Shown here in pieces: positions 8,073-51,660 of a DNA stretch of 51,660 nt. The translations under genes were made by a program, and so were the position numbers. Positions within the stretch are counted from its first letter, which is position 1, and each line of letters opens with the position of its first letter. This DNA comes from an uncultured Alphaproteobacteria bacterium (GTDB lineage Bacteria > Pseudomonadota > Alphaproteobacteria > Thalassobaculales > Thalassobaculaceae), in NCBI GenBank assembly GCA_902589475.1, contig CACITD010000013.1:1-51660 (forward strand). The letters run 5' to 3'. The notes under the pieces were generated by a model. That model was not told the origin of the DNA and did not search any database. It saw only the letters and a program-made list of their open reading frames with translations.

Positions 8073-8099
8073 CTTTACCCTTTTGCCCTCTCAAGTCTT

Positions 8100-8414
8100 A
8101 AAAAGTGAGGCGCTTCTGTTGCCAGGTGCACCCCGAACCCCGCCATGCGGTGCGAACCCCATGGAGTTTAGTTGGGCTTGCCCGACTGCTTAAGCAGCGA
8201 GGCGTGCCTCCGCATAGTTGTCGTTTGCAACTATTATAAAAGCCCGATAACGGCGGTACTATACCGAGCAAAAAAAACGTCTTTATTACGCGCGTCGATC
8301 CTGGTTCGCCCCCGAAGATAGACTTATTCGAGTGGTGGAGGCGCCGGGTACTGCCCCCGGGTCCGCTACGCTTATTCCACGCTTCGTTTATTGCTATAGT
8401 TGGCAAAAACCAAC
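8100..8414 (-). ncRNA. ssrA: tmRNA, circularly permuted two-piece gene
   Basis: On the minus strand the acceptor piece comes first: from about 8414 to the encoded CCA at 8335-8333. It contains a T-arm with stem CCGGG (8360-8356)/CCCGG (8348-8344), loop GGCAGTA, and the 3' acceptor strand CGCCTCC (8343-8337). A 19-base intervening segment (8332-8314) is followed by the coding piece, whose 5' acceptor strand GGGGGCG (8313-8307) pairs with CGCCTCC, then the D-loop-like AACCAGGATCGACG. The tag reading frame runs 8228-8190: resume codon GCA, peptide ANDNYAEARLAA, stop TAA. The order acceptor then coding is the alphaproteobacterial circular permutation; processing removes the intervening segment to leave two RNAs. 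The 3' end near 8100, before a T-run at 8104-8100, is approximate. tmRNA rescues stalled ribosomes and tags the product for proteolysis. Confidence 0.93.
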
Positions 8415-8420
8415 ACTACG

Positions 8421-8449
8421 ATTATACGCTATTAAAATATATTTGGAAG
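8421..8449 (-). promoter_or_regulatory. ssrA: Candidate ssrA promoter
   Basis: A perfect TATAAT (-10) lies at 8426-8421 on the minus strand; the best -35-like hexamer, 16-17 bases upstream (about 8443-8449), is weak. The predicted start at about 8414 leads straight into a small hairpin (TTGG, then T5G, then CCAA) and the acceptor piece. Confidence 0.6.
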
Positions 8450-27063: not shown

Positions 27064-27139
27064 GGGCGCATAGCTCAGTTGGTAGAGCAGCTGACTCTTA
27101 ATCAGCGCGTCCAAGGTTCGAGTCCTTGTACGCCCACCA
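27064..27139 (+). tRNA. tRNA-Lys (anticodon CTT)
   Basis: A 76-base cloverleaf with encoded CCA. The anticodon stem is GCTGA/TCAGC around loop CTCTTAA, with anticodon CTT at 27097-27099. The T-arm is CAAGG-TTCGAGT-CCTTG and the D-arm region is AGCTCAGTTGGTAGAGC. The acceptor stem GGGCGCA/TACGCCC has one C·A mismatch (C6 at 27069 with A67 at 27130); all other stem pairs are canonical. Confidence 0.95.
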
Positions 27140-40403: not shown

Positions 40404-41543
40404 TTATATAATACGGGTACCAAACTTTTTTAATGCTGCTTCGGAGAGCTTGAGGCCCAACCCAGGCGTATCACTCAGAGTTAGATAGCCATCCTCAATT
40501 TTTGGCGGGTTTTCGTAAAGTTCGGCTTGCAATGGATCTCGTTCAGGGTCTGTGAAGGACTCGACTATTCTGCCAGCTGGACTACCCGCAACCAGCGGTG
40601 CGTGGATGAAGCAGTCGTGGTGTGGCGCCACGTCTACGTGGTTCAATTCGCACAATGCTGCTAGCTTTCTACCTTCGGTAAATCCACCGAACATCGTGCA
40701 ATCAAATTGAAGAATTTGAATCGCCTGTTCCTCTATCATCGAACGACAGCCGTAGCTCGTAATTTCACTCTCTCCGCCCGATAAAGGTATTGTAGTCTTC
40801 TGCGATAGTAACTTTAACTCTCGCCGATCGTCGGTCCATCTAACAGGTTCCTCTAACCAAGTTGGTTTAAGCGCTTCAAGTGCCTTAGCGCCTTCAATGG
40901 CGGTTTTTAGGTCCCACGCCCTATTAACGTCGATCATCAAATTGTTTTCTTCGCCGATTACATCACGAACAATCTCCATTCTGGCAATATCTTCGCTCAA
41001 GGAGAGACCACCAACTTTTCCTTTAAAACCTCTGTGTCCTTGCTCAACAAGCATTTGGATTTCTTCTCGTAGTTCCGAGTTGTCCTTTCCTTCGCGATAA
41101 TAAGCACAGGTAACATAACAGGGGACCTTATCGCTGTAGCCGCCAAATATCTTATATAGCGGTAGGTGTCCGACATGCCCTAGAACATCCCAACAAGCGA
41201 TGTCAACGGCTGAGGATATCCGGATTAAAGCTTCTTTCCCCCAACCATTTTCCGACGCAATTCTGCTGGATGTAAAGCCGAATAATTTCTCGTAAACAAG
41301 CTCAGGTGCAAGCGCGTCCATACCAATGATTTCATCGAGTAACCCCGACTTAACAACATTAACAATAGGTGAAATGTCCGTATAGCTGGTAGCTAAACCA
41401 AAACCCTCGGCCCCCGATTTGGTTTTTACGCGGATAAGTAGTTCATTGGCACTGGGAACTTTGAAAAGGCTTACCCAATGGGGACGCTTCTCATTGGGGA
41501 CGGTTAATATATATGCCTCTACATTATCGATGATATCATCCAT
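40404..41543 (-). CDS. Mandelate racemase/muconate-lactonizing-family enzyme
   Basis: A 379-residue enolase-superfamily enzyme. The KxK catalytic motif is in FKGKVG, the Mg ligands are Asp in MIDVNRAW, Glu in WLEEPV and Glu in SGGESE, and the His-Asp dyad is suggested by PHHD and QFD, as in mandelate racemase-type acid-sugar dehydratases. It abstracts a proton alpha to a carboxylate. I start at the ATG at 41543, which has a GGAG ribosome site. The substrate is unknown. Divergent from the monooxygenase, with 202 bases between the start codons that show no clear promoter. Confidence 0.87.
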   Translation of the reverse strand: MDDIIDNVEAYILTVPNEKRPHWVSLFKVPSANELLIRVKTKSGAEGFGLATSYTDISPIVNVVKSGLLDEIIGMDALAPELVYEKLFGFTSSRIASENGWGKEALIRISSAVDIACWDVLGHVGHLPLYKIFGGYSDKVPCYVTCAYYREGKDNSELREEIQMLVEQGHRGFKGKVGGLSLSEDIARMEIVRDVIGEENNLMIDVNRAWDLKTAIEGAKALEALKPTWLEEPVRWTDDRRELKLLSQKTTIPLSGGESEITSYGCRSMIEEQAIQILQFDCTMFGGFTEGRKLAALCELNHVDVAPHHDCFIHAPLVAGSPAGRIVESFTDPERDPLQAELYENPPKIEDGYLTLSDTPGLGLKLSEAALKKFGTRII

Positions 41544-41745
41544 GCGGTTACTCCAAATTAACATCTAATCGTTTTTTAACTTCGTTTGCTGGTGGCAGGG
41601 TGCTTTCGTTGATCATTGCTCTTTAGGAAAGATATATTATCAAAGTGAGTGTTTTTTGAAGAGCAAATTTAGGTTATTATATTTCCTTTTAATCGATCTT
41701 GCTTTATGTAATCGGAAATAAAACGACATTTTAAGAGTTGGTATA

Positions 41746-43353
41746 GTGTCTGAGAATAATTCACAGTATGATGTGATTGTGATAGGAGCAGGTGTTGCGG
41801 GCCTCTATCAACTTTTCAAGTTACGACAACTTAAGCTAAAAGCGCTAGTAATCGAAGCAGGCGATAATGTTGGCGGTACATGGTATTGGAATCGTTACCC
41901 AGGTGCCCGATTTGACTCAGAAAGTTGGTCCTACGGGTATTCTTTCTCCAAGGAACTCTTTGAGGAATGGGATTGGCCGGAACATTTTGCCGCACAACCT
42001 GATACGTTAAGGTATCTTAATTATGTCGCCGATAAGTTTGATTTTCGACGAGATATTAAGTTCGATAGAAGAGTAGAAGCATGCGTTTTTGATCAACATA
42101 ATAATTTGTGGACTGTAAGGACAAACACGAAGGAAGAATATGTAGCGCGTTTCTTGATCACAGCATTAGGGCCATTATCAGCATTTACCCTACCAAACAT
42201 TGAGGGTAGAGAGACTTTTAAAGGACCAGCATATCACACTGCAAGATGGCCTCACGAGGAGGTAGACTTCTCAGGGAAGCGGGTTGGAATCATAGGGACG
42301 GGTGCATGTGCAATTCAAACAATACAAACTATAGCGAAGGATGTTGCTCACCTCACGGTTTTTCAGCGTAGTCCAAATTGGGCCGCGCCTCTTAATAATA
42401 GTGTAATTACAGAAGACGAACAGAAACAAATCAAGCAGGATTTTGAAAAAATTTTTGAGCAATGTAGAAAAACGATTGCATGTTTTATTCACGACCCAGA
42501 TCCCAGGAGCACGACCGATTTGACGCCAGATGAGAGGGAAGCATTTTGGGAAAAACTTTATAAAGAACCTGGGTTTGGAATTTGGATTGGCAACCTAAAA
42601 GACATCTTAGTTGATGAGCAAGCTAATAAACTGATGACAGAGTTCGCCGCAAAAAAAATCCGTGAACGCGTAAAAGATCCTAAAATTGCAAAATTACTCA
42701 CACCAAAGAACCATGGGTTTGGAACTCGAAGGCTACCTTTGGAAAGTGGTTACTACGAGGTTTATAATCAGGAAAACGTTTTGCTAGTAGATCTTAACGA
42801 GACCCCGATCACGCGTATAACAGAAAACGGCATAAAAACGTCTAATCAATTGTATGAATTTGACCTTATTATATACGCCACCGGTTTTGATGGCGTAACA
42901 GGCCCTTATGATCGGATTGATATCCGAACGTCAACGGGTCGTTGTCTTAAAGACGACTGGAGCGATTTCCCAAGAACCTTGTTTGGTATGCAGGCAGAAG
43001 GTTTTCCAAATATGTTTATGATTTTAGGGCCGCATACTTCGCGAGGTAATATACCGAGAAATATTGAAGAGGTGGTAGATTGGCAAACCAATCTTTTGGA
43101 ATATACAATGAGCAATGGATTTACCAGGGTGGAGCCTAAGTCAAAGTCAGTAGACAAGTGGGAGGCCCAAGTGAAAAAAGCATCTGAAGGCCTTTTAATG
43201 AGTGGTGTTGGCTCTTGGCAAACAGGCGTAAACAGTAATGTAGCTGGTAGAGATAAACCAAGGGTTTTGGCTTATAATGGCGGAGCCGTTAAATACAGAA
43301 CAGTTATTCAAAAAGTCGAGGCAAATAATTACGCGGAATTCTTTTTCGCTTAA
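41746..43353 (+). CDS. Baeyer-Villiger-type flavin monooxygenase
   Basis: A 535-residue FAD/NADPH enzyme of the cyclohexanone-monooxygenase type. The FAD Rossmann motif GAGVAG is at the N-terminus, the Baeyer-Villiger fingerprint FKGPAYHTARWP (F-x-G-x3-H-x3-W-P) is complete, and the NADPH motif GIIGTGACAIQ follows directly. It inserts oxygen beside a ketone carbonyl to give an ester or lactone. The start is GTG with a weak AAGAG ribosome site. The next gene converges on it. Confidence 0.92.
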   Translation: MSENNSQYDVIVIGAGVAGLYQLFKLRQLKLKALVIEAGDNVGGTWYWNRYPGARFDSESWSYGYSFSKELFEEWDWPEHFAAQPDTLRYLNYVADKFDFRRDIKFDRRVEACVFDQHNNLWTVRTNTKEEYVARFLITALGPLSAFTLPNIEGRETFKGPAYHTARWPHEEVDFSGKRVGIIGTGACAIQTIQTIAKDVAHLTVFQRSPNWAAPLNNSVITEDEQKQIKQDFEKIFEQCRKTIACFIHDPDPRSTTDLTPDEREAFWEKLYKEPGFGIWIGNLKDILVDEQANKLMTEFAAKKIRERVKDPKIAKLLTPKNHGFGTRRLPLESGYYEVYNQENVLLVDLNETPITRITENGIKTSNQLYEFDLIIYATGFDGVTGPYDRIDIRTSTGRCLKDDWSDFPRTLFGMQAEGFPNMFMILGPHTSRGNIPRNIEEVVDWQTNLLEYTMSNGFTRVEPKSKSVDKWEAQVKKASEGLLMSGVGSWQTGVNSNVAGRDKPRVLAYNGGAVKYRTVIQKVEANNYAEFFFA

Positions 43354-43402: not shown

Positions 43403-46400
43403 TTATTTGACTTGCTTGGCTATTTTTTGATCGACTTCGTCTCTCACGTAGTAAGGCTTCCCATATGGATCAAGATAGAGCTTTTTCATTTCATTGACAT
43501 TAAATGGCCGTGAGCCAAGTCGTCCGAATACTGCGATCTGACCACCGGTTTCATCAACGCCTCTATCTCTATCTAATCCCTTTGACAATGCAAGGGCAGG
43601 ATATTTTGTCTTTTTCCAAGCAATTAGTTCTGGTTTTGGTTCAGGACTGTATCCGTAAAAACGAGGCTGGGAGTCAGGTGAGGTAAGCTGAATAACTTTC
43701 AGACCGTTTTTCCCATCTGCTACATATGCGAAAAGGGACGCGTTAGTTGTGCCTACAATGACATCTCTTGCATCATTGATCTTTCCGTTAGCGTTGAAGA
43801 GTTTATAGAGTTTTGGCTGCTCTGGGTTTTTTACATTTATAATCGCAAGTCCCTCACTTCCTGCTGCTACGTAAGCATATGTGCGTGCAACGTAAAGTTT
43901 TTTGGGGTTTTTAAGAGCAATATGAGCTCCTAAAACAGGTTTGATGTTCTTTGGTTGTGTCGCATCAAATACTTTTAAGCCTTCAGCATCAGTGACGAAC
44001 AAATAGCGGAACTGAAGCGCTGAGGCTCTTGGATCTTCCATTTCTATTTTCTGAACAAGCTTAGGTTTTAGCGGGTCATCAAGGTCTAGCACGACTAGCG
44101 AACTTGGCGTCGTGATATAGACAATATGGCCCGCCATAGTGATATGTCGCGCGCCCGTCAAAATGTTGTCTGGATTCCAGGTTAATGCTCGCTTTAAAAA
44201 GTTATTACGAGGAAGGCCGTCGGCTAAAGTGTTTACATTTACAACAATTAGACCCTCTTCCGAATCCGTTACAAACGCGTAATTGTAAATGGGGTGGAAT
44301 GGTTGCTCTTGGTTTATTTTCCTCATTAAGTCACCTGTGTTTCGCTCGGGAGCGATGGCCTGATTAGTTGGGAGGGCCATGCAGGTGGCATTTTTTGATT
44401 CAACTCTGGTATCGTGGCCCAGAGGAGAAAATGGCGCCGTAATTACCCGTTGACTAAAGCCTTTGTTTGAGATCGATGCTACATCATAGACATGAAAGCC
44501 TTCGGCACCACTTGCAGTGAAAAGGTATTCACCTCTTAATGTCACACAATTAACAGCACCGTCTGCGTTGTGCGTACGACTTACTGGCAGTTCCTTATTC
44601 CGCTTTTGGTGCTCATCATACCAATCTGGATAGGCATATTTTTGTAAATAGCTCCCAATTACAGCTTGCGGCTCATCCCATTCAGTTACCTGTACTGCCT
44701 CAACGCCTCCTTCACCACCAATCCAAGCATTGTAACCAACAAAATTTACAAAATTTGTACCCTGCAATAGGAGTTGAGCCATTCTTGCATTATTGTCATT
44801 AGCAGCAGATAGATGGCAGTCGGAACAATTTTTGGTCTCTTCTTTCCTAACTGTATGTGCGAAGTGAGGCGCGAATGCTTGGCTAGAATATCCACTAGAT
44901 GCGATCGGCGGTTGTTGTATGTAAAGTTTCTCGCGATTAATGTTTGTTGAGGACAGTACTAAAGCCGATGTCGACCGTATGGGGGCAATTGTATTACCTT
45001 TTGCAGTACTGTGGATTCCTAATTGAAACATTTGGTCACGAGCAACCTGTGGGTTGTAGGTCGCATAATTGCGAGTTTCTCCACCTTCATAATGATGCCG
45101 CTCTGTCTTCCAGTTGGCTTCAATTGGTAGATGGCATCCACCACAGCTCGTTGTCCATGAAAGGTGACACGTGAAACATTCCATTTCGTCTGGTTTGTGT
45201 GCTCGTTTGTCAGCGGGAACGTTCAGGCCCCAATCCATATTGTTAGGGTCTGCTTTCATAAGTTTTGCTCGCGCCGATTTAGCGTTGTAATCTTTGTGGC
45301 CGGGGTTAACGCTATCTTTAACCAATGAAACTTCCCACTCTAATCCAGGCCAAAGCGCTGATCGTTGGTAAAGCACCCCTTCTCTCCACTCAAAGCGCTT
45401 TGAGCCATCTGAGTTTCTCGTTACCCCAACATCATTGCCCCCTTCAGGCGCAGCAGGACCAGAGGTTAAAAGTGTGGGGTATTTGTCAGCGGTGCCGTGG
45501 CAGTCCTGGCAGGTTATCTCAATTGCGCTGGCCACTTCGCCATAAAGGTGGCCATTCCCATGCGTATCTTGTTCGAAATGGCAATCTACACAATGCATTC
45601 CCGCATCAAGATGTATTGACGACATATGTACGGCCTTTTCAAATTTATCAGGGTCTTCATGTGATACGATATTCCCATCCTTATCTAATAAATTTCCAGC
45701 CTCGTCCTTCTTGAAGATTGCACGGAAATTCCAGCCATGTCCGTGATAGTCAGCAAATTGAGTATTCTCTAACTTCGGATTAAGTTTTGATACTTCTTTC
45801 AAAAATTCAGGATCTGACCAAAGGCCACGAACAGCTGCCCCTTCAGGGTTCCTTTCAAGAATTTCGTGCATTTCTGCATTGCTTGGGTATCTTTGTTCTT
45901 TAGGCCACATATGTGGAGCATCCGATTCATAATCCCACATCGTGTAACCAAGAAACGAATTCACAAAAATATTAGGTTGATGCATATGACAAATCATACA
46001 TTGACTTGTCGGAATGGCGCTTGTGAATTCATGTTTCAGGGGGTGACCTTCTTCTCCTTTCGGTATCGTTGGGTCGCTTGTCTGGCTCATGCCGGTATGG
46101 CCATATTTTGCATATGGGCCTGAATGCCTAGGGTCCCTGTCATTTGCATAAACAACGTGACAAGCAGCGCATCCCGAAGAACGATAGTCACCAGGTTGCT
46201 CGTTGGTGCCGAGGAACCATGTAAAGGGATCATTCAAACGTGTTTTTGTAATATTGATGACCGGAACCGAAATTCGAAGTCCTGTTCCTGGGCCCCGGTT
46301 TGACTGTTTTAGGTCTGGTCTTCCGGGTTCCTCTAACCTTTGTATTTGGCCTAGTGAATTTGGCAGCCCGATTTCGGGAAATAAGTTAACGATATTTCTT

Positions 46401-47149
46401 CCACCTCTTTCGAAGACCCTAAAAATATCTCCAGGCGGAATTGTTTCCCAAGCTGGAAGAGGTGCAAGTGATTCTAAAATGCCAGCAGCCTTCATCTCCT
46501 CTGTGACTGGCGTCGGGTTTTTCAGTAAAGCCCCCGTTCCATCCCTTGTGTACCCTTCGCCTAGAATATAGTTTTTAAATGGCAGGATGCCATTGTTATA
46601 TGCGGCACCACCCCAAAGCATTGCGCCCGTCGCCATGAGACTGTTTTTTGCTGCTCGGATCGCTCCTGCATGGCAGGAGCCGCAAGCTTCTTCGACAATC
46701 CTATAATCACTAGGATTTACGAAACGGACATATTCTGGACTTTCTTTATTTAATAATGTGTATGACGCCACAGGGTTTGCGCTGCTTGGATAATTCCAAG
46801 TCTGCGGATATCTCGGTTGAACATGGGCTTGGTCCATTGCCGTTCGGTATGCTTTCTTGGATGGTGCACCTGAAGCTGGTTTCATAATTGATGAATTGCC
46901 GCCATGACAGTCTGTGCAACCTAGGGGTACGCCACTGTTGCGATGCATGCTTGGCTCATCCGTTGTTGTATGGCAACTGATGCAACCCTGGCTTTTAATA
47001 TTGATTTGCTCAACTGGTTGCCATTTTGGGGCAGGGGGTGTGTTTACATAGGTGATATCCCGTGGTTTTTCACCGGATGCCGCAAAGCTGTGTGTAGCTG
47101 CCAAAAGGACCAAACTGATAACTGAAATTATGTAACGTAAATAAACCAA
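43403..47149 (-). CDS. Secreted decahaem cytochrome c with C-terminal LVIVD beta-propeller
   Basis: A 1248-residue protein with a signal peptide (about 1-24, ending SFAAS). Exactly ten CXXCH haem sites are present: residues 56, 78, 156, 327, 384, 520, 547, 658, 669 and 775. Residues about 860-1175 have LVIVD-type propeller repeats (SSLVVLDLDDPLKPK, EGLKVFDATQPKNIK, EGLAIINVKNPEQPK, NGLKVIQL). It should sit in the periplasm or at the cell surface and move electrons over ten haems; the propeller may bind a partner or substrate. The start is TTG with an AGGCAAAG ribosome site, 9 bases after the barrel gene's stop. Last gene of the cytochrome/porin operon. No catalytic cytochrome family I know fits this layout. 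Confidence 0.9.
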   Translation of the reverse strand: MVYLRYIISVISLVLLAATHSFAASGEKPRDITYVNTPPAPKWQPVEQINIKSQGCISCHTTTDEPSMHRNSGVPLGCTDCHGGNSSIMKPASGAPSKKAYRTAMDQAHVQPRYPQTWNYPSSANPVASYTLLNKESPEYVRFVNPSDYRIVEEACGSCHAGAIRAAKNSLMATGAMLWGGAAYNNGILPFKNYILGEGYTRDGTGALLKNPTPVTEEMKAAGILESLAPLPAWETIPPGDIFRVFERGGRNIVNLFPEIGLPNSLGQIQRLEEPGRPDLKQSNRGPGTGLRISVPVINITKTRLNDPFTWFLGTNEQPGDYRSSGCAACHVVYANDRDPRHSGPYAKYGHTGMSQTSDPTIPKGEEGHPLKHEFTSAIPTSQCMICHMHQPNIFVNSFLGYTMWDYESDAPHMWPKEQRYPSNAEMHEILERNPEGAAVRGLWSDPEFLKEVSKLNPKLENTQFADYHGHGWNFRAIFKKDEAGNLLDKDGNIVSHEDPDKFEKAVHMSSIHLDAGMHCVDCHFEQDTHGNGHLYGEVASAIEITCQDCHGTADKYPTLLTSGPAAPEGGNDVGVTRNSDGSKRFEWREGVLYQRSALWPGLEWEVSLVKDSVNPGHKDYNAKSARAKLMKADPNNMDWGLNVPADKRAHKPDEMECFTCHLSWTTSCGGCHLPIEANWKTERHHYEGGETRNYATYNPQVARDQMFQLGIHSTAKGNTIAPIRSTSALVLSSTNINREKLYIQQPPIASSGYSSQAFAPHFAHTVRKEETKNCSDCHLSAANDNNARMAQLLLQGTNFVNFVGYNAWIGGEGGVEAVQVTEWDEPQAVIGSYLQKYAYPDWYDEHQKRNKELPVSRTHNADGAVNCVTLRGEYLFTASGAEGFHVYDVASISNKGFSQRVITAPFSPLGHDTRVESKNATCMALPTNQAIAPERNTGDLMRKINQEQPFHPIYNYAFVTDSEEGLIVVNVNTLADGLPRNNFLKRALTWNPDNILTGARHITMAGHIVYITTPSSLVVLDLDDPLKPKLVQKIEMEDPRASALQFRYLFVTDAEGLKVFDATQPKNIKPVLGAHIALKNPKKLYVARTYAYVAAGSEGLAIINVKNPEQPKLYKLFNANGKINDARDVIVGTTNASLFAYVADGKNGLKVIQLTSPDSQPRFYGYSPEPKPELIAWKKTKYPALALSKGLDRDRGVDETGGQIAVFGRLGSRPFNVNEMKKLYLDPYGKPYYVRDEVDQKIAKQVK

Positions 47150-47158
47150 CTGCTTTGC

Positions 47159-48961
47159 CTAATATGTAAGAATAAGGTTTGCTTGAACGGAAAAAAACGT
47201 ATCATCTTGATCGCGTTGCTCACCATACAAGTCTGTGAATCCACTACCCGGAAATAAAGCTGCACCAGACAATCTAAACACGACGTTCTGAGTAAAAAAT
47301 GGTCGATATATCGCAGCAACCGAGACGTCTAAACCAATTTCCTGTGCGATTTCTTGTTGGTTGCGTGCGACTTCAAGCACAGATGTATCATCAAATTCCA
47401 TATAATTTACATTAGTCGAAACGCGTAATTCTGGAAGTATGTCGAAATCGGCTCCAACGCCGATCAAGCGAAGGCCAGGATTGTTGAAATTAGATTGTCC
47501 ATGTTCTTTTGAAGTTCTAAGAGCCGGAAGCATAGCGTTTCTGGCAGTAGTTACTATACCGCCGCCACCAATTAAAGGGATGGTTTGCCTTATCCAAAAG
47601 TTCGTATCCGATCCGGCAATTTGTGGGTTTTCAAAAATCGCATCAAAACCCGTTTCTGTATTATCAAAAGGATCGCTGTCGCCGCTTGCATAGACTAATG
47701 AGCCGCGAAGTCGGATCCAGTCAAAATCAATTCCCGGCTCTGCCGCAAAGAAAAAGGATCTAATGTTAGCTGTTTCGTCGCTGAACGCGCTTTCGCGATT
47801 TGTACCCAGTGCTGTGTAGAATGAAGTTGTTAAATTTAGTCGGCCAAAATGACCATCGCCATTAAATCCAAGATAGCCTACGTCATAGTTGCGACCGCGC
47901 TCACTTCCAAAAGATGCCGGTCTTTCAATAAATTCGTTATCATTAAAATAGAAATCGCCACCTTCAGTATTCCGATTATAGACAGCAGTTACCTGACTTT
48001 GAAAACCCAATATAGGAAAATCTTGCCAGTAAAGGTTTGCGATAAAGATATCATCGTCCCTTATTTTTCTATTAATGTGGTTTAAAAGACTATTGGTATC
48101 TTTTTCGAGACGCCTGAACCACGCTAAATTGTATTGAAAGATATTGTTATCTCTGTCGCCAAAAAGCCTTACTCCTAGTTGGCTATCCTGGAATAAAAAC
48201 CCTCTAAAGTCTGTAGAAAAAGGCTGTATGCCAATACGAATTGAGTCGAAATCGTACCTGTCTGAAACATTACGAATGTGGTAATCGAAAAAGGCTTCTT
48301 GCAACGCAATATGCCTGTCAGAACGTTCCGTTCCTAACCTTGGATCGGCTTTCAGAACTCTCACTTCTTCCACTTCAACGTGATTAAAGTTGAAAACGGG
48401 AGTTAAGCGAAACTCATAATCAGGTGGTTTGAATGCGGTATCGCCTTTTATTAGGGAGAGGCTAACAATTAAATTCTCATTAAAAACCCAGCTATCGGCC
48501 CCGCCAAAAAGATCAACGTCGTTTGCATCGCGGGTGGCTTGCACGCCTACTGGCACTGGAAAACTTCGAGGTTCAAAAACTGTGTCAGAGATGACCGCTA
48601 GATTAATAAACCAATCCTTGCCAAATAGCGGTCGATCACCCTTAAGGGGATTGCGATTATAAGGGTCGAGTACACTCTCTTTAACACCAACGCTTTCTAT
48701 GATCCGCCAGCGATCTGGTACAGGTAGGAAATTTGAAGGGTCGTCGCGTTTAAGAATCGGCGGACGTTTCTTGACCGCTGATGGTAAAGGCTTCAGCTCT
48801 TTGTTTTTATCATATTCAGAAGAACCCGGCCTCTTCCTTTCAAGCGCTTGCGCAAGTTCTGTGCAAAGGCCAGCGGTTGTTGCTGAAAAAAGCAAGGTCG
48901 TTGCCGCCGCAACTGGCACCATTAGTTTTATTGTATCTTTAAAAATTACTTTCCTGAACAT
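47159..48961 (-). CDS. Outer-membrane beta-barrel (porin-like) protein
   Basis: A 600-residue protein: signal peptide (about 1-31, basic start then VPVAAATTLLFSATTAG), a soluble N-terminal stretch rich in Pro and charges (about 32-75), then alternating polar/hydrophobic amphipathic strands with many aromatic girdle residues. It ends in an aromatic residue (LILTY), as Bam-inserted barrels do. No CXXC lies at the mature N-terminus, so it lacks that MtrB feature. The start overlaps the upstream stop codon by 16 bases. With cytochromes on both sides it is a good candidate for the sheath of an electron conduit, but a plain porin or substrate channel is also possible. Confidence 0.82.
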   Translation of the reverse strand: MFRKVIFKDTIKLMVPVAAATTLLFSATTAGLCTELAQALERKRPGSSEYDKNKELKPLPSAVKKRPPILKRDDPSNFLPVPDRWRIIESVGVKESVLDPYNRNPLKGDRPLFGKDWFINLAVISDTVFEPRSFPVPVGVQATRDANDVDLFGGADSWVFNENLIVSLSLIKGDTAFKPPDYEFRLTPVFNFNHVEVEEVRVLKADPRLGTERSDRHIALQEAFFDYHIRNVSDRYDFDSIRIGIQPFSTDFRGFLFQDSQLGVRLFGDRDNNIFQYNLAWFRRLEKDTNSLLNHINRKIRDDDIFIANLYWQDFPILGFQSQVTAVYNRNTEGGDFYFNDNEFIERPASFGSERGRNYDVGYLGFNGDGHFGRLNLTTSFYTALGTNRESAFSDETANIRSFFFAAEPGIDFDWIRLRGSLVYASGDSDPFDNTETGFDAIFENPQIAGSDTNFWIRQTIPLIGGGGIVTTARNAMLPALRTSKEHGQSNFNNPGLRLIGVGADFDILPELRVSTNVNYMEFDDTSVLEVARNQQEIAQEIGLDVSVAAIYRPFFTQNVVFRLSGAALFPGSGFTDLYGEQRDQDDTFFSVQANLILTY

Positions 48962-50904
48962 GGCGTTTGATCGGCTGAGTCTAAAAATGGTGCAAATGGA
49001 CAACTTACATATCTTAGGCGTGTTCCATTTGCGAAGAGAAGGTCCGCACGGATACCACGGGGGGCATTACCTATCCCAGTCCCTAATTCCAATCCAGCGT
49101 TGTGTAACCCCAGGAATGAAATCATATCATCTTGATCTATACCATCCCCGGAAACGCCAAGTCCGCCAACTAAAACATTGTTCCGATAAATTGGAACACT
49201 GCCGGGAAAGATTTGAATCCCATTTGGTATCCTTGATTTGGCTGTCTCCGGTCTAAGGGGGAGTGAGGTACAACCTGATGCCGTGTCCACGCTTGAAAGC
49301 CCCAGAAGGAAAGAGCGATGGGCCACCAAATTTGCCGCTACTAAATCCAGTTGCAATCCAGTATTGAAAATACTCCATTCCGCGATAGGCTTGCTGAAAG
49401 GTCCAGGTGGTGCATTGGTCACACCGTCCGGTAAATACGGTCTTGATAAGTTTCCTCCTGATCGGTCCGCGAACGCGATGCCGTCGCCTAGCGCAGTTGG
49501 TCCTAACACCGACCTTACCTGCAACACATAGTTTCCCAAATTTCCAGCTATTAATTCATTACCTGCATTGCGATTAGAAAAAAAAGCCGCTGTTCTAGCC
49601 TTTTGTAAAGATACATCGGTCCCAAAAACCGGTCCGTCCGGGGTTCGTGCTAACCCAACAATAGCGCCATTAGTATCAACCACCGATACAGTGACATGTG
49701 CGTGATCTCCTAAAGGACGCCTAATTTGACCGCGGGCCCTAAAAGCGATTGTAAGTGCGTGTCGAATAATCGTTCTAACTTCGTTGGCCGTCATCGCTTC
49801 CGGCGTTCCTTCGGTTCCATCTCTTGGAGAGAACCTTGGTTGGTTATTGCCATCTACAAGAATGAATGCATTTAACGGGCCGTACTCTCCTGTCGTATTT
49901 GCTCTGTAACCGGAAGCGGGTGTTCCAAAGGCTGTGCCGGATCTGATTGTTCCAGCAAAATAGGTGCCTATTGCGGTAAGTCCGCCCACTGATCTATCTA
50001 GCTGGTCAAAGGGAACCGCCTCCGAAGCTTTAGATCTTAATGCGCGATAACCTCTGTCAGTAAAACGAAACGTTTTACCTTCTACGGTAATCCGATTACC
50101 CCTTATATCTACTGGAGCTTCGAAACCAACCGTACCCGCAAGAGCGATTAATTCGTCCAGGTCATTATCAAAATCGCCGATGTTTGGATCGAGACTATAT
50201 AAACCGTCAGATATCACTCCAATTGCTCCAACGACCTGGTTATTTTTATATAGAGGAATGCCACCAGGATCAGCAGCTAGTCCGAGGGGAGAGCGTTTTG
50301 GACCTATTGTGACAGCGGAGCTATTTTCGGCAATAACCAAATCAGAACATGGCAGTTGACTGAACTGAACCCCAAAAAGAGGGCCGCTAGGCGAAAAGCG
50401 TTCCTTTGGATTGAAGTGTTCTTGAACGATTTGACTAGCTGTGCGTGTTGTGAACGCGTTGCCGCTGGATGACAGATAAGCCCCAGTTATTGCCTTGGCT
50501 ATTGCGGCCACCGGGCCTGGAACATCTAAACGTTCTAGTCCGCCTTTTCCAGGTACCCCGTTAGGTTGTTTTGGGTCTGAAGTCACAACCACACATCCAA
50601 CAGGTATATTGCTTAGGCCAACTGTGCAGTCAACACCCGCCGCATTGAATTGCCTATTCGCGCCGATCATATTGTATACGGCTAGAATGTTGCCGGTTCT
50701 ATCTGATACCGCTATAGCCGCTCCAACACCTCTTGTGCGGGCTTCATGAATAGCCTGAGCTAAAACGCGCTTTACTTCATTTATCGATAGGCTTTCTTGA
50801 ACCCATGCAGTGGATATTTGCAGTAAGGAGACGGTTGTGGTGACTGCAACGAGTAGTAGAAGATGAAAACAACTCTTCTTGAGGTTTAAAAGAAGTAGTC
50901 TCAT
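48946..50904 (-). CDS. Secreted protein with two GlcG/HbpS-like (DUF336) domains
   Basis: A 652-residue protein with a signal peptide (hydrophobic core about 14-32). Two copies of the GlcG/HbpS fold are visible: about 37-240 (AAIAVSDRTGNILAVYNM, later PLYKNNQVVGAIGVISDG) and about 370-610 (VTVSVVDTNGAIVGLART, later PIYRNNVLVGGLGVSGDG). A ~120-residue linker separates them. The family includes haem-binding HbpS and GlcG; some members sense or store haem. It has several cysteines but no CXXCH. The start codon overlaps the previous gene by ATGA. Its place in a haem-protein operon suggests haem handling or a scaffold role (inference). Confidence 0.85.
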   Translation of the reverse strand: MRLLLLNLKKSCFHLLLLVAVTTTVSLLQISTAWVQESLSINEVKRVLAQAIHEARTRGVGAAIAVSDRTGNILAVYNMIGANRQFNAAGVDCTVGLSNIPVGCVVVTSDPKQPNGVPGKGGLERLDVPGPVAAIAKAITGAYLSSSGNAFTTRTASQIVQEHFNPKERFSPSGPLFGVQFSQLPCSDLVIAENSSAVTIGPKRSPLGLAADPGGIPLYKNNQVVGAIGVISDGLYSLDPNIGDFDNDLDELIALAGTVGFEAPVDIRGNRITVEGKTFRFTDRGYRALRSKASEAVPFDQLDRSVGGLTAIGTYFAGTIRSGTAFGTPASGYRANTTGEYGPLNAFILVDGNNQPRFSPRDGTEGTPEAMTANEVRTIIRHALTIAFRARGQIRRPLGDHAHVTVSVVDTNGAIVGLARTPDGPVFGTDVSLQKARTAAFFSNRNAGNELIAGNLGNYVLQVRSVLGPTALGDGIAFADRSGGNLSRPYLPDGVTNAPPGPFSKPIAEWSIFNTGLQLDLVAANLVAHRSFLLGLSSVDTASGCTSLPLRPETAKSRIPNGIQIFPGSVPIYRNNVLVGGLGVSGDGIDQDDMISFLGLHNAGLELGTGIGNAPRGIRADLLFANGTRLRYVSCPFAPFLDSADQTPCSGK

Positions 50905-51350
50905 GGTGTTCTTCTGCCGGATAAATCAAAAACGCCAAATTTCAATTCTGTTGCAGTACGATATGCAACCATAATTTTAATTGGAAAAAGCTCTTCGCTC
51001 AAATCATCATCTTTAAAGATTTTAAAATTAATTGCGTTGCTGCTCTTTGGACTGAATGTATCCATCAAATCGTCTAATTTGCCAGACCATGGCACCCAAT
51101 ATCCGAGATTAGTCCGTTGTAGCATATTTCCTGTTGGCGTGTGCGCAGTTATATGAGTTTTCAGTGGAACATCATCTCCAATTTTCACCTGTACGTTCAA
51201 ACTTGCGCGGTTCGTATCAATCGTTGCGTTGGGTAAAACTGAACCCCAAGTTACGAGCTCTAGCTTCTCTGAAGCTGAACTGATCGTGGCGCCAGTTACC
51301 GAAAGGAGCAAAAAAAGAATTGATGCGACAATAGTTGTAAGTTTCAGCAT
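50901..51350 (-). CDS. Small secreted protein of unknown function in the cytochrome operon
   Basis: A 149-residue protein with a clear signal peptide (MLKLTTIVASILFLLLSVTG…SASE, about 1-26) and a beta-rich, cysteine-free mature part. No family is recognised. The ATG at 51350 is 2 bases after the upstream cytochrome's stop codon and the gene overlaps the next start by ATGA, so it is embedded in a coupled series. An in-frame start 24 codons upstream would overlap the cytochrome gene and lack the signal at its N-terminus, so I reject it. A periplasmic accessory factor is plausible. Confidence 0.7.
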   Translation of the reverse strand: MLKLTTIVASILFLLLSVTGATISSASEKLELVTWGSVLPNATIDTNRASLNVQVKIGDDVPLKTHITAHTPTGNMLQRTNLGYWVPWSGKLDDLMDTFSPKSSNAINFKIFKDDDLSEELFPIKIMVAYRTATELKFGVFDLSGRRTP

Positions 51351-51352
51351 CC

Positions 51353-51660
51353 TTATTTTTGTCCCGTCGTTGGTGACATCAGCGCAAGCTTGTCGTTGTG
51401 GAAGACATGACAACTTATGCATGTGCTAGGTATTTTATCAGAGGTTAGCTGTCCTCCGTGACAATCGCGGCAGCTTTCAATTTTTGGTAAAAGAACGTCA
51501 GAACTTGTGGAAGATTGCTCCGCGGCGTGACAGCTTTCACAGGATGCGTCCGCATGCGCTTCATGATTGAATACGGAAAGAGGTTGCCAAATATTAGTTA
51601 CTCTGACGGGTTCCACTTTATAATCTGCCGTCTTATCTGACTTCCTTTGCAACTGGTGGC
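51353..51660 (-). CDS. Multihaem c-type cytochrome, C-terminal part (5' end outside window)
   Basis: Open at the right window edge; the TTG at 51652 is not needed as a start because the frame continues upstream. The visible ~102 residues contain three CXXCH sites (CESCH, CRDCH, CISCH) with extra histidines (FNHEAHAD, CHVFHND) that could be distal ligands. The spacing and the short soluble tail resemble c3/c7-like or multihaem cytochrome C-termini. The stop is two bases before the next gene's ATG. It shows that the operon extends upstream. Confidence 0.85.
   Translation of the reverse strand, partial: HQLQRKSDKTADYKVEPVRVTNIWQPLSVFNHEAHADASCESCHAAEQSSTSSDVLLPKIESCRDCHGGQLTSDKIPSTCISCHVFHNDKLALMSPTTGQK

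Follow-up and report, generated by a model that had tools for sequence, protein, structure and literature searches.

Outer-membrane conduits for electrons have been studied mostly in metal-respiring or iron-oxidising specialists. In MtrCAB, MtoAB and PioAB, a barrel is encoded together with multihaem c-type cytochromes, and a membrane-anchored cytochrome acts as electron supply; the barrel of MtrB is described with 26 strands (PMC7198977). Besides these, three further clusters are close in make-up: i) extHIJKLMNOPQS of Geobacter (porin ExtI, cytochromes ExtKL, ExtM, ExtN and ExtS), which is linked to selenite and tellurite and in the accessible part of its description also holds a Rieske and a rhodanese-like protein (PMC5877670), ii) the Uet complex of Tenderiales, described with the undecahaem UetJ, the tetrahaem UetA, the trihaems UetDEG, the barrel UetC and the NHL proteins UetHI (PMC10734462) and iii) PCC3 of iron oxidisers, which unites a periplasmic and an outer multihaem protein, a porin and an inner-membrane protein. 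Here, we compare with these systems five genes at the end of a 51,660-nucleotide stretch of DNA (the window), which is contig C13 of an uncultured alphaproteobacterium of the Thalassobaculaceae and ends at base 51660. Judged from sequence, these genes form the outer portion of a larger conserved unit that is interrupted by the contig end. Our preferred reading, to which we assign a probability of roughly 55%, is that this unit encodes a signal-gated electron-export chain that is driven by NAD(P)H and ends at the outer membrane.

The source genome is incomplete (2.08 Mb in 93 contigs, 59% complete), and the named relatives closest to it are alphaproteobacterial metagenome-assembled genomes. A scan of one genome collection for relatives of the large decahaem protein c0 returned at least 588 stretches, and all locus counts refer to the best 80 of these. 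Open frames were grouped by similarity and then verified with profiles; the groups c7, c12 and c16 were ignored as apparent opposite-strand frames of real genes in GC-rich genomes. Within set lengths, the profile sets held 77 rows for c0, 45 for c1, 53 for c2, 56 for c3, 52 for c4, 47 each for c5 and c6 and 7 for c15. Excluding near-copies and loci from the plasmid collection, we aligned the window protein with 54 of 73 eligible relatives for c0, 44 of 48 for c1 and 26 of 50 for c2, and in addition 50 of 52 sequences for c4 and 45 of 47 for c6.

The genes, their order, ligand residues, domains and co-occurrence are direct observations. The full unit reads c3-c6-c4-(c15)-c2-c1-c0 with c5 nearby, where c3 is a flavin and iron-sulfur protein, c6 a b561-like membrane protein, c4 an anchored decahaem cytochrome, c2 a GlcG protein, c1 a barrel and c5 a pentahaem cytochrome; in some betaproteobacterial and other loci, c3 is placed after c5 at the far end. 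Order was counted in loci with enough upstream sequence (69, 60 and 59 of the 80). The barrel gene lies immediately upstream of c0 in all 69 loci with more than 2000 bases upstream, the order c2-c1-c0 is kept in 59 of 60 and broken in L076 (titled Nitrosomonas), and c6-c4-(c15)-c2-c1-c0 is contiguous in 57 of 59, the exceptions being L076 and L095, in which c3-c6-c4 is divergent. Similarly, c3 is found within the locus in 57 of 59 cases, and the remaining two (L042, L046) have less than 900 bases downstream. The genes are thus not scattered among relatives, and this deep conservation of the gene set supports the proposal of the initial annotation that the barrel and the GlcG protein belong to a coherent electron-transfer unit.

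For c5, the count is 42 of the 56 loci with more than 5 kb downstream. An absence from the clade of the window, as the 14 loci without c5 could suggest, turned out to be wrong: these stretches are too short, and c5 is present in all 12 c0-bearing genomes tried, 11 of them from the family of the window (its own genome included) and one other. In G004, it lies just beyond the fetched stretch and on the opposite strand, some 1.5 kb upstream of c3.

The missing inner part of the unit can also be traced in the source genome itself. Contig C66 carries residues 116-796 of c3, the gene c6 and residues 1-329 of c4, the latter reaching the contig end, and a relative whose c0 is 96% identical (L023) has a c4 of 568 residues whose end equals the fragment in the window. 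Since c3, c6 and the start of c4 are located at the end of C66, the operon was most simply split by an assembly gap. Two descriptions in the initial annotation stand in part. Its multihaem cytochrome with at least three haems does show three CXXCH motifs, but the piece covers just the C-terminal 100 of the 568 residues of a decahaem protein; its secreted 149-residue protein (c15) is present with an apparent signal sequence, but as a member of the unit it is only accessory. It occurs in 10 of the 80 loci, each of which falls within the alphaproteobacterial branch of the c0 tree, and is rejected as a core part by this low count, and a comparison with Pfam gave no convincing match.

Of the inner components, c3 (P0006) combines a Pyr_redox_3 domain (expectation value, E, 4.5e-28), two cyclic-nucleotide-binding (cNMP) stretches (4.1e-39) and a Fer4_7 domain (6.9e-14), and is predicted to be a flavin adenine dinucleotide (FAD)/NAD(P) oxidoreductase with two cyclic-nucleotide-binding domains and four [4Fe-4S] motifs. 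Sixteen Cys are conserved at 95% or more in its 56 sequences, all of them in the ferredoxin part. It also matches YpdA/TrxR models; a function as disulphide reductase was rejected, as no Cys outside the ferredoxin part is conserved. The membrane protein c6 (P0007) has five His at 95% or more of 47 sequences, in line with the ligands of two b-haems. In c4 (P0008), an FHA-like domain (23 of 50 members match FHA and 26 of 50 the related YscD domain) and one membrane helix are combined with ten CXXCH, which are found in 51 of 52 sequences, with nine in the other. Exactly ten further His are conserved at 95% or more, as expected if each haem has two His ligands. The same balance is seen in c5, which matches Cytochrome_C554; its 47 sequences all carry four CXXCH plus a single CX4CH, and exactly five further His are conserved. 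A flavoprotein with [4Fe-4S] clusters, a b561-like membrane protein and an anchored decahaem cytochrome form a familiar route for electrons from the cytoplasm to the periplasm.

The outer cytochrome c0 has exactly ten CXXCH (2000 shuffles: mean 0.012, maximum 2), so that c0, c4 and c5 together provide 25 c-type haem sites. All ten are kept in 55 of 55 aligned rows along with 13 further invariant His, and in the wider set 76 of 77 sequences have ten and one has nine. With a propeller of the LVIVD type (Pfam E 2.6e-11), the decahaem-propeller protein of 1248 residues reported in the initial annotation is borne out. Among the best structural matches of this propeller is the surface-layer YVTN protein 1l0q (Z 28.6, root-mean-square deviation 2.4, 273 aligned), tied with several others; the YVTN-type propeller is a common fold and by itself no pointer to function. 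Sequence searches against solved structures gave one chance-level match for c0, none for the c0 of the window alone and none for c1.

Based on these components, electrons would pass from NAD(P)H via FAD to the four [4Fe-4S] clusters of c3 and then through the b-haems of c6 to c4, which would be anchored in the inner membrane with its ten haems extending into the periplasm. The pentahaem c5 would serve as carrier between c4 and c0 at the outer membrane. There, c0, c1 (barrel) and c2 (GlcG protein) would form a complex, from which c0 may hand electrons to a substrate at or beyond the cell surface; the propeller of c0 and c2 are probably involved in docking or substrate binding. Cyclic nucleotides, acting on the two cNMP domains of c3, and protein phosphorylation, acting through the FHA-like domain of c4, would gate the chain. 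The order of the path, its outward direction, the position of c0, the substrate and the gating are what we infer: the direction because the c3 end is of the NAD(P)H type and no energy coupling is visible, the gating because of the cNMP domains, the FHA-like domain and the signalling genes that neighbour some loci. An inward flow, in which c0 takes electrons from an extracellular donor such as a metal, a sulfur compound or an electrode and c3 reduces NAD(P)+, appears unlikely, as the formation of NAD(P)H from typical extracellular donors would be uphill and no proton-gradient coupling is seen in the unit. Hosts that would fit this direction are Nitrosomonas, Limnobacter, Sulfuriflexus and a Haliea metagenome-assembled genome titled 'Biocath', which we read as biocathode (all by record title), and PioAB is described as taking up electrons (PMC6831781); many other hosts are, to judge from their names, ordinary heterotrophs.

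The signalling neighbours differ between loci. In some gammaproteobacteria, a PP2C phosphatase cluster (10 loci) and a double-FHA cluster (11 loci) are located beside c5; the PP2C and FHA domains were verified at L061 only (L061:14913-17056), a hint of phosphorylation control. A CHASE2-adenylate/guanylate cyclase stands beside the unit in L040 (L040:14190-22685) and L045 (L045:17654-21431), in L040 with PilZ, FecR and cadherin-repeat proteins and in L045 likewise with FecR.

The double-GlcG protein is as initially described: c2 scores 77.7 bits against a Pfam cut-off of 25 for HbpS-like proteins, with four HbpS/GlcG stretches in two halves. Most relatives have a lipoprotein-type Cys (39 of 53 at that column), which is absent in the window. 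No His is invariant in the 27 aligned rows, and the three columns richest in His have it in 35 to 39 of 53 sequences, so that binding of haem by the GlcG domains via conserved His is not supported. Among solved structures, c2 matches GlcG/HbpS proteins named extracellular haem-binding protein, glycolate utilization protein/EfgA and similar, EfgA being a formaldehyde sensor. These names are what favours a redox system for maturation or stress, in which electrons would go to the reduction of haem, disulphides or peroxides in proteins of the periplasm or the surface and the GlcG/HbpS domains would handle haem or a small molecule. Given the lack of an invariant His in c2 and of a dithiol site in c3, and 25 c-type haems as an improbable investment for such a task, we consider this explanation very unlikely.

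For the barrel c1, the AlphaFold model (600 residues, mean pLDDT, the predicted local distance difference test, 76.7) has 18 long strands and a conserved 71-residue stretch (model residues 426-496) without strands of three or more residues. As initially noted, the window protein lacks an N-terminal CXXC; it contains no CXXC at all. The first 16 rows of a Foldseek search were all AlgE, and in a second structural comparison AlgE 3rbh_D (Z 27.7, root-mean-square deviation 2.8, 361 aligned) was closely followed by OprD/Occ porins, with identities of 8-13% in the rows listed, so that the predicted fold is of the 18-strand AlgE/OprD type. No MtrB was among the 50 listed rows of the second comparison (AlgE, OprD/Occ and other porins), which alone excludes nothing. 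At the level of sequence families, Alginate_exp weakly matched 5 of 45 members, but not that of the window, at an E limit of 0.1 (lowest value 1.4e-6), the Desulfovibrio-type porin model DESULF_POR1 matched 22 of 45, and the MtrB/PioB models matched none of the 45 (E limits of 0.1 in Pfam and 1 in NCBIfam). On barrel family matches and on the strand number and fold of the model, we reject membership in the MtrAB-type conduits, and the likeness to MtrAB and PioAB is not supported in the form put forward in the initial annotation. With 18 strands, compared to 26 in MtrB and a predicted 16 in the one-haem protein Cyc2 (PMC8406198), c1 is of the narrow kind, which makes an MtrA-like wire through it unlikely. 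According to the model, c1 more likely holds or positions c0, or admits a small substrate to it, than threads haems.

This narrow fold also brings in the strongest rival, a periplasmic reductase fed by a porin. Here, c1 would admit a small acceptor, such as an oxyanion or an organic anion, which c0 reduces on the periplasmic side, and electrons from NAD(P)H would run along c3-c6-c4-c5 without any of them crossing the outer membrane. The AlgE/OprD-like model and the Alginate_exp and DESULF_POR1 matches fit this, as do the distant likeness of c0 to ExtM from the Geobacter selenite/tellurite cluster and the precedent of Cyc2, whose narrow barrel dissolved Fe(II) is presumed to enter (PMC8406198). 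In part, it coincides with the counter-reading of the initial annotation, a small-pore substrate porin without contact to cytochromes, of which the narrow pore is predicted by the model. However, the invariable adjacency of c1 and c0 together with the high conservation of c1 (39 of 44 relatives across classes are 45-60% identical to the window protein) point to a partner protein that stays the same rather than to a substrate that varies, and the surface-type propeller of c0 fits a position at the surface. We therefore regard the porin-fed reductase as a serious but clearly less probable explanation than electron export.

The unit is kept with high sequence identity in many members of the alpha-, beta- and gammaproteobacteria. 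Of 289 genomes of the class, 20 have a strong c0 (at E up to 1e-10 the number is 22, which includes two weak 28% matches), c3 is found in 26 at E below 1e-200 and in 40 at 1e-30, and c5 in 26 at 1e-40; both c3 and c5 are present in 20 of 20 genomes with a strong c0. Among 398 genomes of the phylum, c0 was found in 11. The c0 tree (78 rows, 70 of them class-labelled) mostly follows class, with 6 changes compared to the least possible 2, so that the unit is of old origin and was passed on mainly by descent, perhaps with a few transfers. L077 and L093, two records of metagenome-assembled genomes titled Bordetella parapertussis, group with a betaproteobacterium in this tree, and the titles are probably misattributed. 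Plasmids of Sphingobium and Sphingopyxis also carry the unit (13 records covering at least 80% of the query). On the 959-kb plasmid pMSHV of Sphingobium herbicidovorans (L103:559-31043, typed conjugative), it adjoins CHAT, CHASE2 and hemolysin-secretion (ShlB/FhaC/HecB) genes and a gene for a 2093-residue hypothetical protein.

Six genomes have c3 without c0. In G060, the contig ends inside c2, and the other five (G087, G095, G140, G154, G291) carry a different outer pair somewhere in the genome. Its first member is a 5-haem protein with about 590-700 residues; the second has about 515-585 and, like many barrels, ends in Phe. The latter has no Pfam family at 1e-3, and from its Phe end and gene place our guess is that it is a barrel. 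G194 has both kinds of outer module. The 5-haem protein occurs in 23 of the 289 class genomes at E up to 1e-20, and at 61-65% identity in nine further genomes without full c3, in which a shorter c3 relative (cNMP and Fe-S part) is encoded about 3 kb away on the same contig. In two of these regions that were read, L164 (266-9229) and L165 (3607-12860), genes for the c554-like, cNMP and [4Fe-4S], b561-like, 10-haem, 5-haem and barrel-like proteins form one run; the short c3 relative of L164 has Pfam cNMP and Fe-S domains but no FAD domain. This run in L164 is followed by an NAD-binding/2Fe-2S reductase gene. A hybrid is found in L166 (1397-8732), where c6 and c4 of the window type stand beside the 5-haem and barrel-like pair, with c3 on another contig. 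Two unlike outer pairs with similar inner parts support a split into supply and output. Somewhat short of even odds, we tentatively propose a superfamily of signal-gated electron exporters in Proteobacteria that are aerobic by their host names. It would consist of a core that varies in detail by type but has the same four kinds of protein in every type read here (cNMP/[4Fe-4S] protein, b561-like protein, membrane-anchored decahaem, c554-like cytochrome) and interchangeable outer-membrane modules, either the decahaem-propeller protein with the AlgE-like barrel and GlcG or the 5-haem protein with a second, barrel-like family.

Several observations weigh against electron export by the unit. The barrel is probably too narrow for a wire of the MtrA type, and we do not claim an unbroken chain of haems through the outer membrane. 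Besides, c0 has, judged by eye, a plain Sec signal, as a rule without a lipoprotein site, and may therefore remain periplasmic; the mean pLDDT of its model is 67.0, with a reliable propeller and an unreliable haem part. L076 lacks c2, as does L099 (a locus too short for the counts) between c4 and c1, and c2 is hence not essential. On the inner side, only 13 of 45 c6 members attain the Pfam b561 model, and in the near relative of the window the FHA-like domain stays below threshold. As to co-occurrence, G046 (77% complete) has c5 without c0 or a strong c3, and G154 has c3 but at 1e-40 lacks c5, encoding just a c5-like protein of more distant relationship.

Compared to MtrCAB, MtoAB and PioAB, the unit shares the barrel encoded with multihaem c-type cytochromes and the membrane-anchored cytochrome as supply, but it has another barrel family with 18 instead of 26 strands in the model, a flavoprotein entry of the NAD(P)H type, cNMP and FHA-like domains, a GlcG protein and a propeller. 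Nor does a cytochrome of the unit attain the DmsE/MtrA cut-off of 192.2 bits: the decahaem c4 gets 23.3, and c0 is unlisted there at E up to 1. The AlgE/OprD porins resemble c1 in fold, but at the low identity given above and outside an electron-transfer gene setting as found here. With the Uet complex, the unit has in common a barrel, a large multihaem protein and, NHL repeats being propeller-type, a comparable repeat protein. Haem numbers and gene set differ, a distinction that rests on the published description (PMC10734462). The ext cluster likewise contains a barrel, several multihaem proteins, a b-type cytochrome and an Fe-S protein; c0 distantly resembles ExtM (E 4.7e-22) but with 78 bits does not reach the ExtM equivalogue cut-off of 800, and the alternative 5-haem protein resembles ExtKL (E 5.1e-10). 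Where that cluster is described with Rieske and rhodanese-like proteins (PMC5877670), the present unit has the flavo-Fe-S-cNMP protein and GlcG. PCC3 is similar in the arrangement of its parts in one cluster but has proteins of 21-27 and 10-35 haems, and its accessible description mentions no flavoprotein, FHA or GlcG (PMC10734462). The gene sets of the Tenderia, Methylobacter and Gallionellaceae conduits, as far as covered by the published parts, also differ. By these tests, the unit works like a trans-envelope multihaem electron system outside the Mtr/Pio family and is no ExtM equivalogue. The claim of the initial annotation that the system is undescribed agrees with the open-licence papers in PubMed Central, in which we found no description of the gene set and no characterised family covering exactly this set. 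On a Sphingobium plasmid, RefSeq gives the products only the names 'cytochrome c family protein', 'heme-binding protein', 'hypothetical protein', 'multiheme c-type cytochrome', 'cytochrome c3 family protein' and 'cyclic nucleotide-binding domain-containing protein'.

Within the window, the five frames occupy the last 8.3 kb on one strand and overlap or are separated by at most 9 bases, which confirms the layout seen initially (Table 1). We assigned signal peptides and membrane helices by inspection of N-termini and sequence, without a prediction program. A scan for promoters and terminators gave no excess over shuffles.

Table 1. Features of the conserved unit within the window
Feature	Position	Strand	Description
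c0 (P0001)	43403..47149	-	1248 aa; decahaem with C-terminal propeller (LVIVD/YVTN type); N-terminal signal by eye
c0 haem-binding part	44813..46984	-	residues 56-779, first Cys to last His of ten CXXCH
c0 beta-propeller	43568..44743	-	residues about 803-1194; model residues 780-1171, mostly high confidence
c1 (P0002)	47159..48961	-	outer-membrane barrel (predicted), 600 aa from ATG at 48961
c1, alternative start	47159-49003	-	TTG at 49003; 14 residues more, 614 aa
c2 (P0003)	48946..50904	-	652 aa; two GlcG/HbpS domains
c15 (P0004)	50901..51350	-	149 aa; function not assigned; N-terminal signal by eye
c4 fragment (P0005)	51353..51660 (open-ended frame 51353-51658)	-	C-terminal residues 469-568 of 568; 3 of 10 haems

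c0 is flanked by a 386-residue frame on the minus strand and a 535-residue frame on the plus strand (40404-43353), which we take by eye to be enolase-superfamily-like and FAD-monooxygenase-like; c0 has the same two neighbours in L024 and L025. Elsewhere in the window are a transfer-messenger RNA gene (8099-8425; ARAGORN, marked *) and a tRNA-Lys(ctt) gene (27064-27139).

The unit thus combines 25 c-type haem sites, a cytoplasmic entry of the NAD(P)H type and two likely regulatory inputs. If electron export is the correct reading, many ordinary heterotrophs would own a regulated surface reductase. If the superfamily exists as proposed, ordinary heterotrophs would send reducing power to their surface on the command of cyclic nucleotides and phosphorylation.

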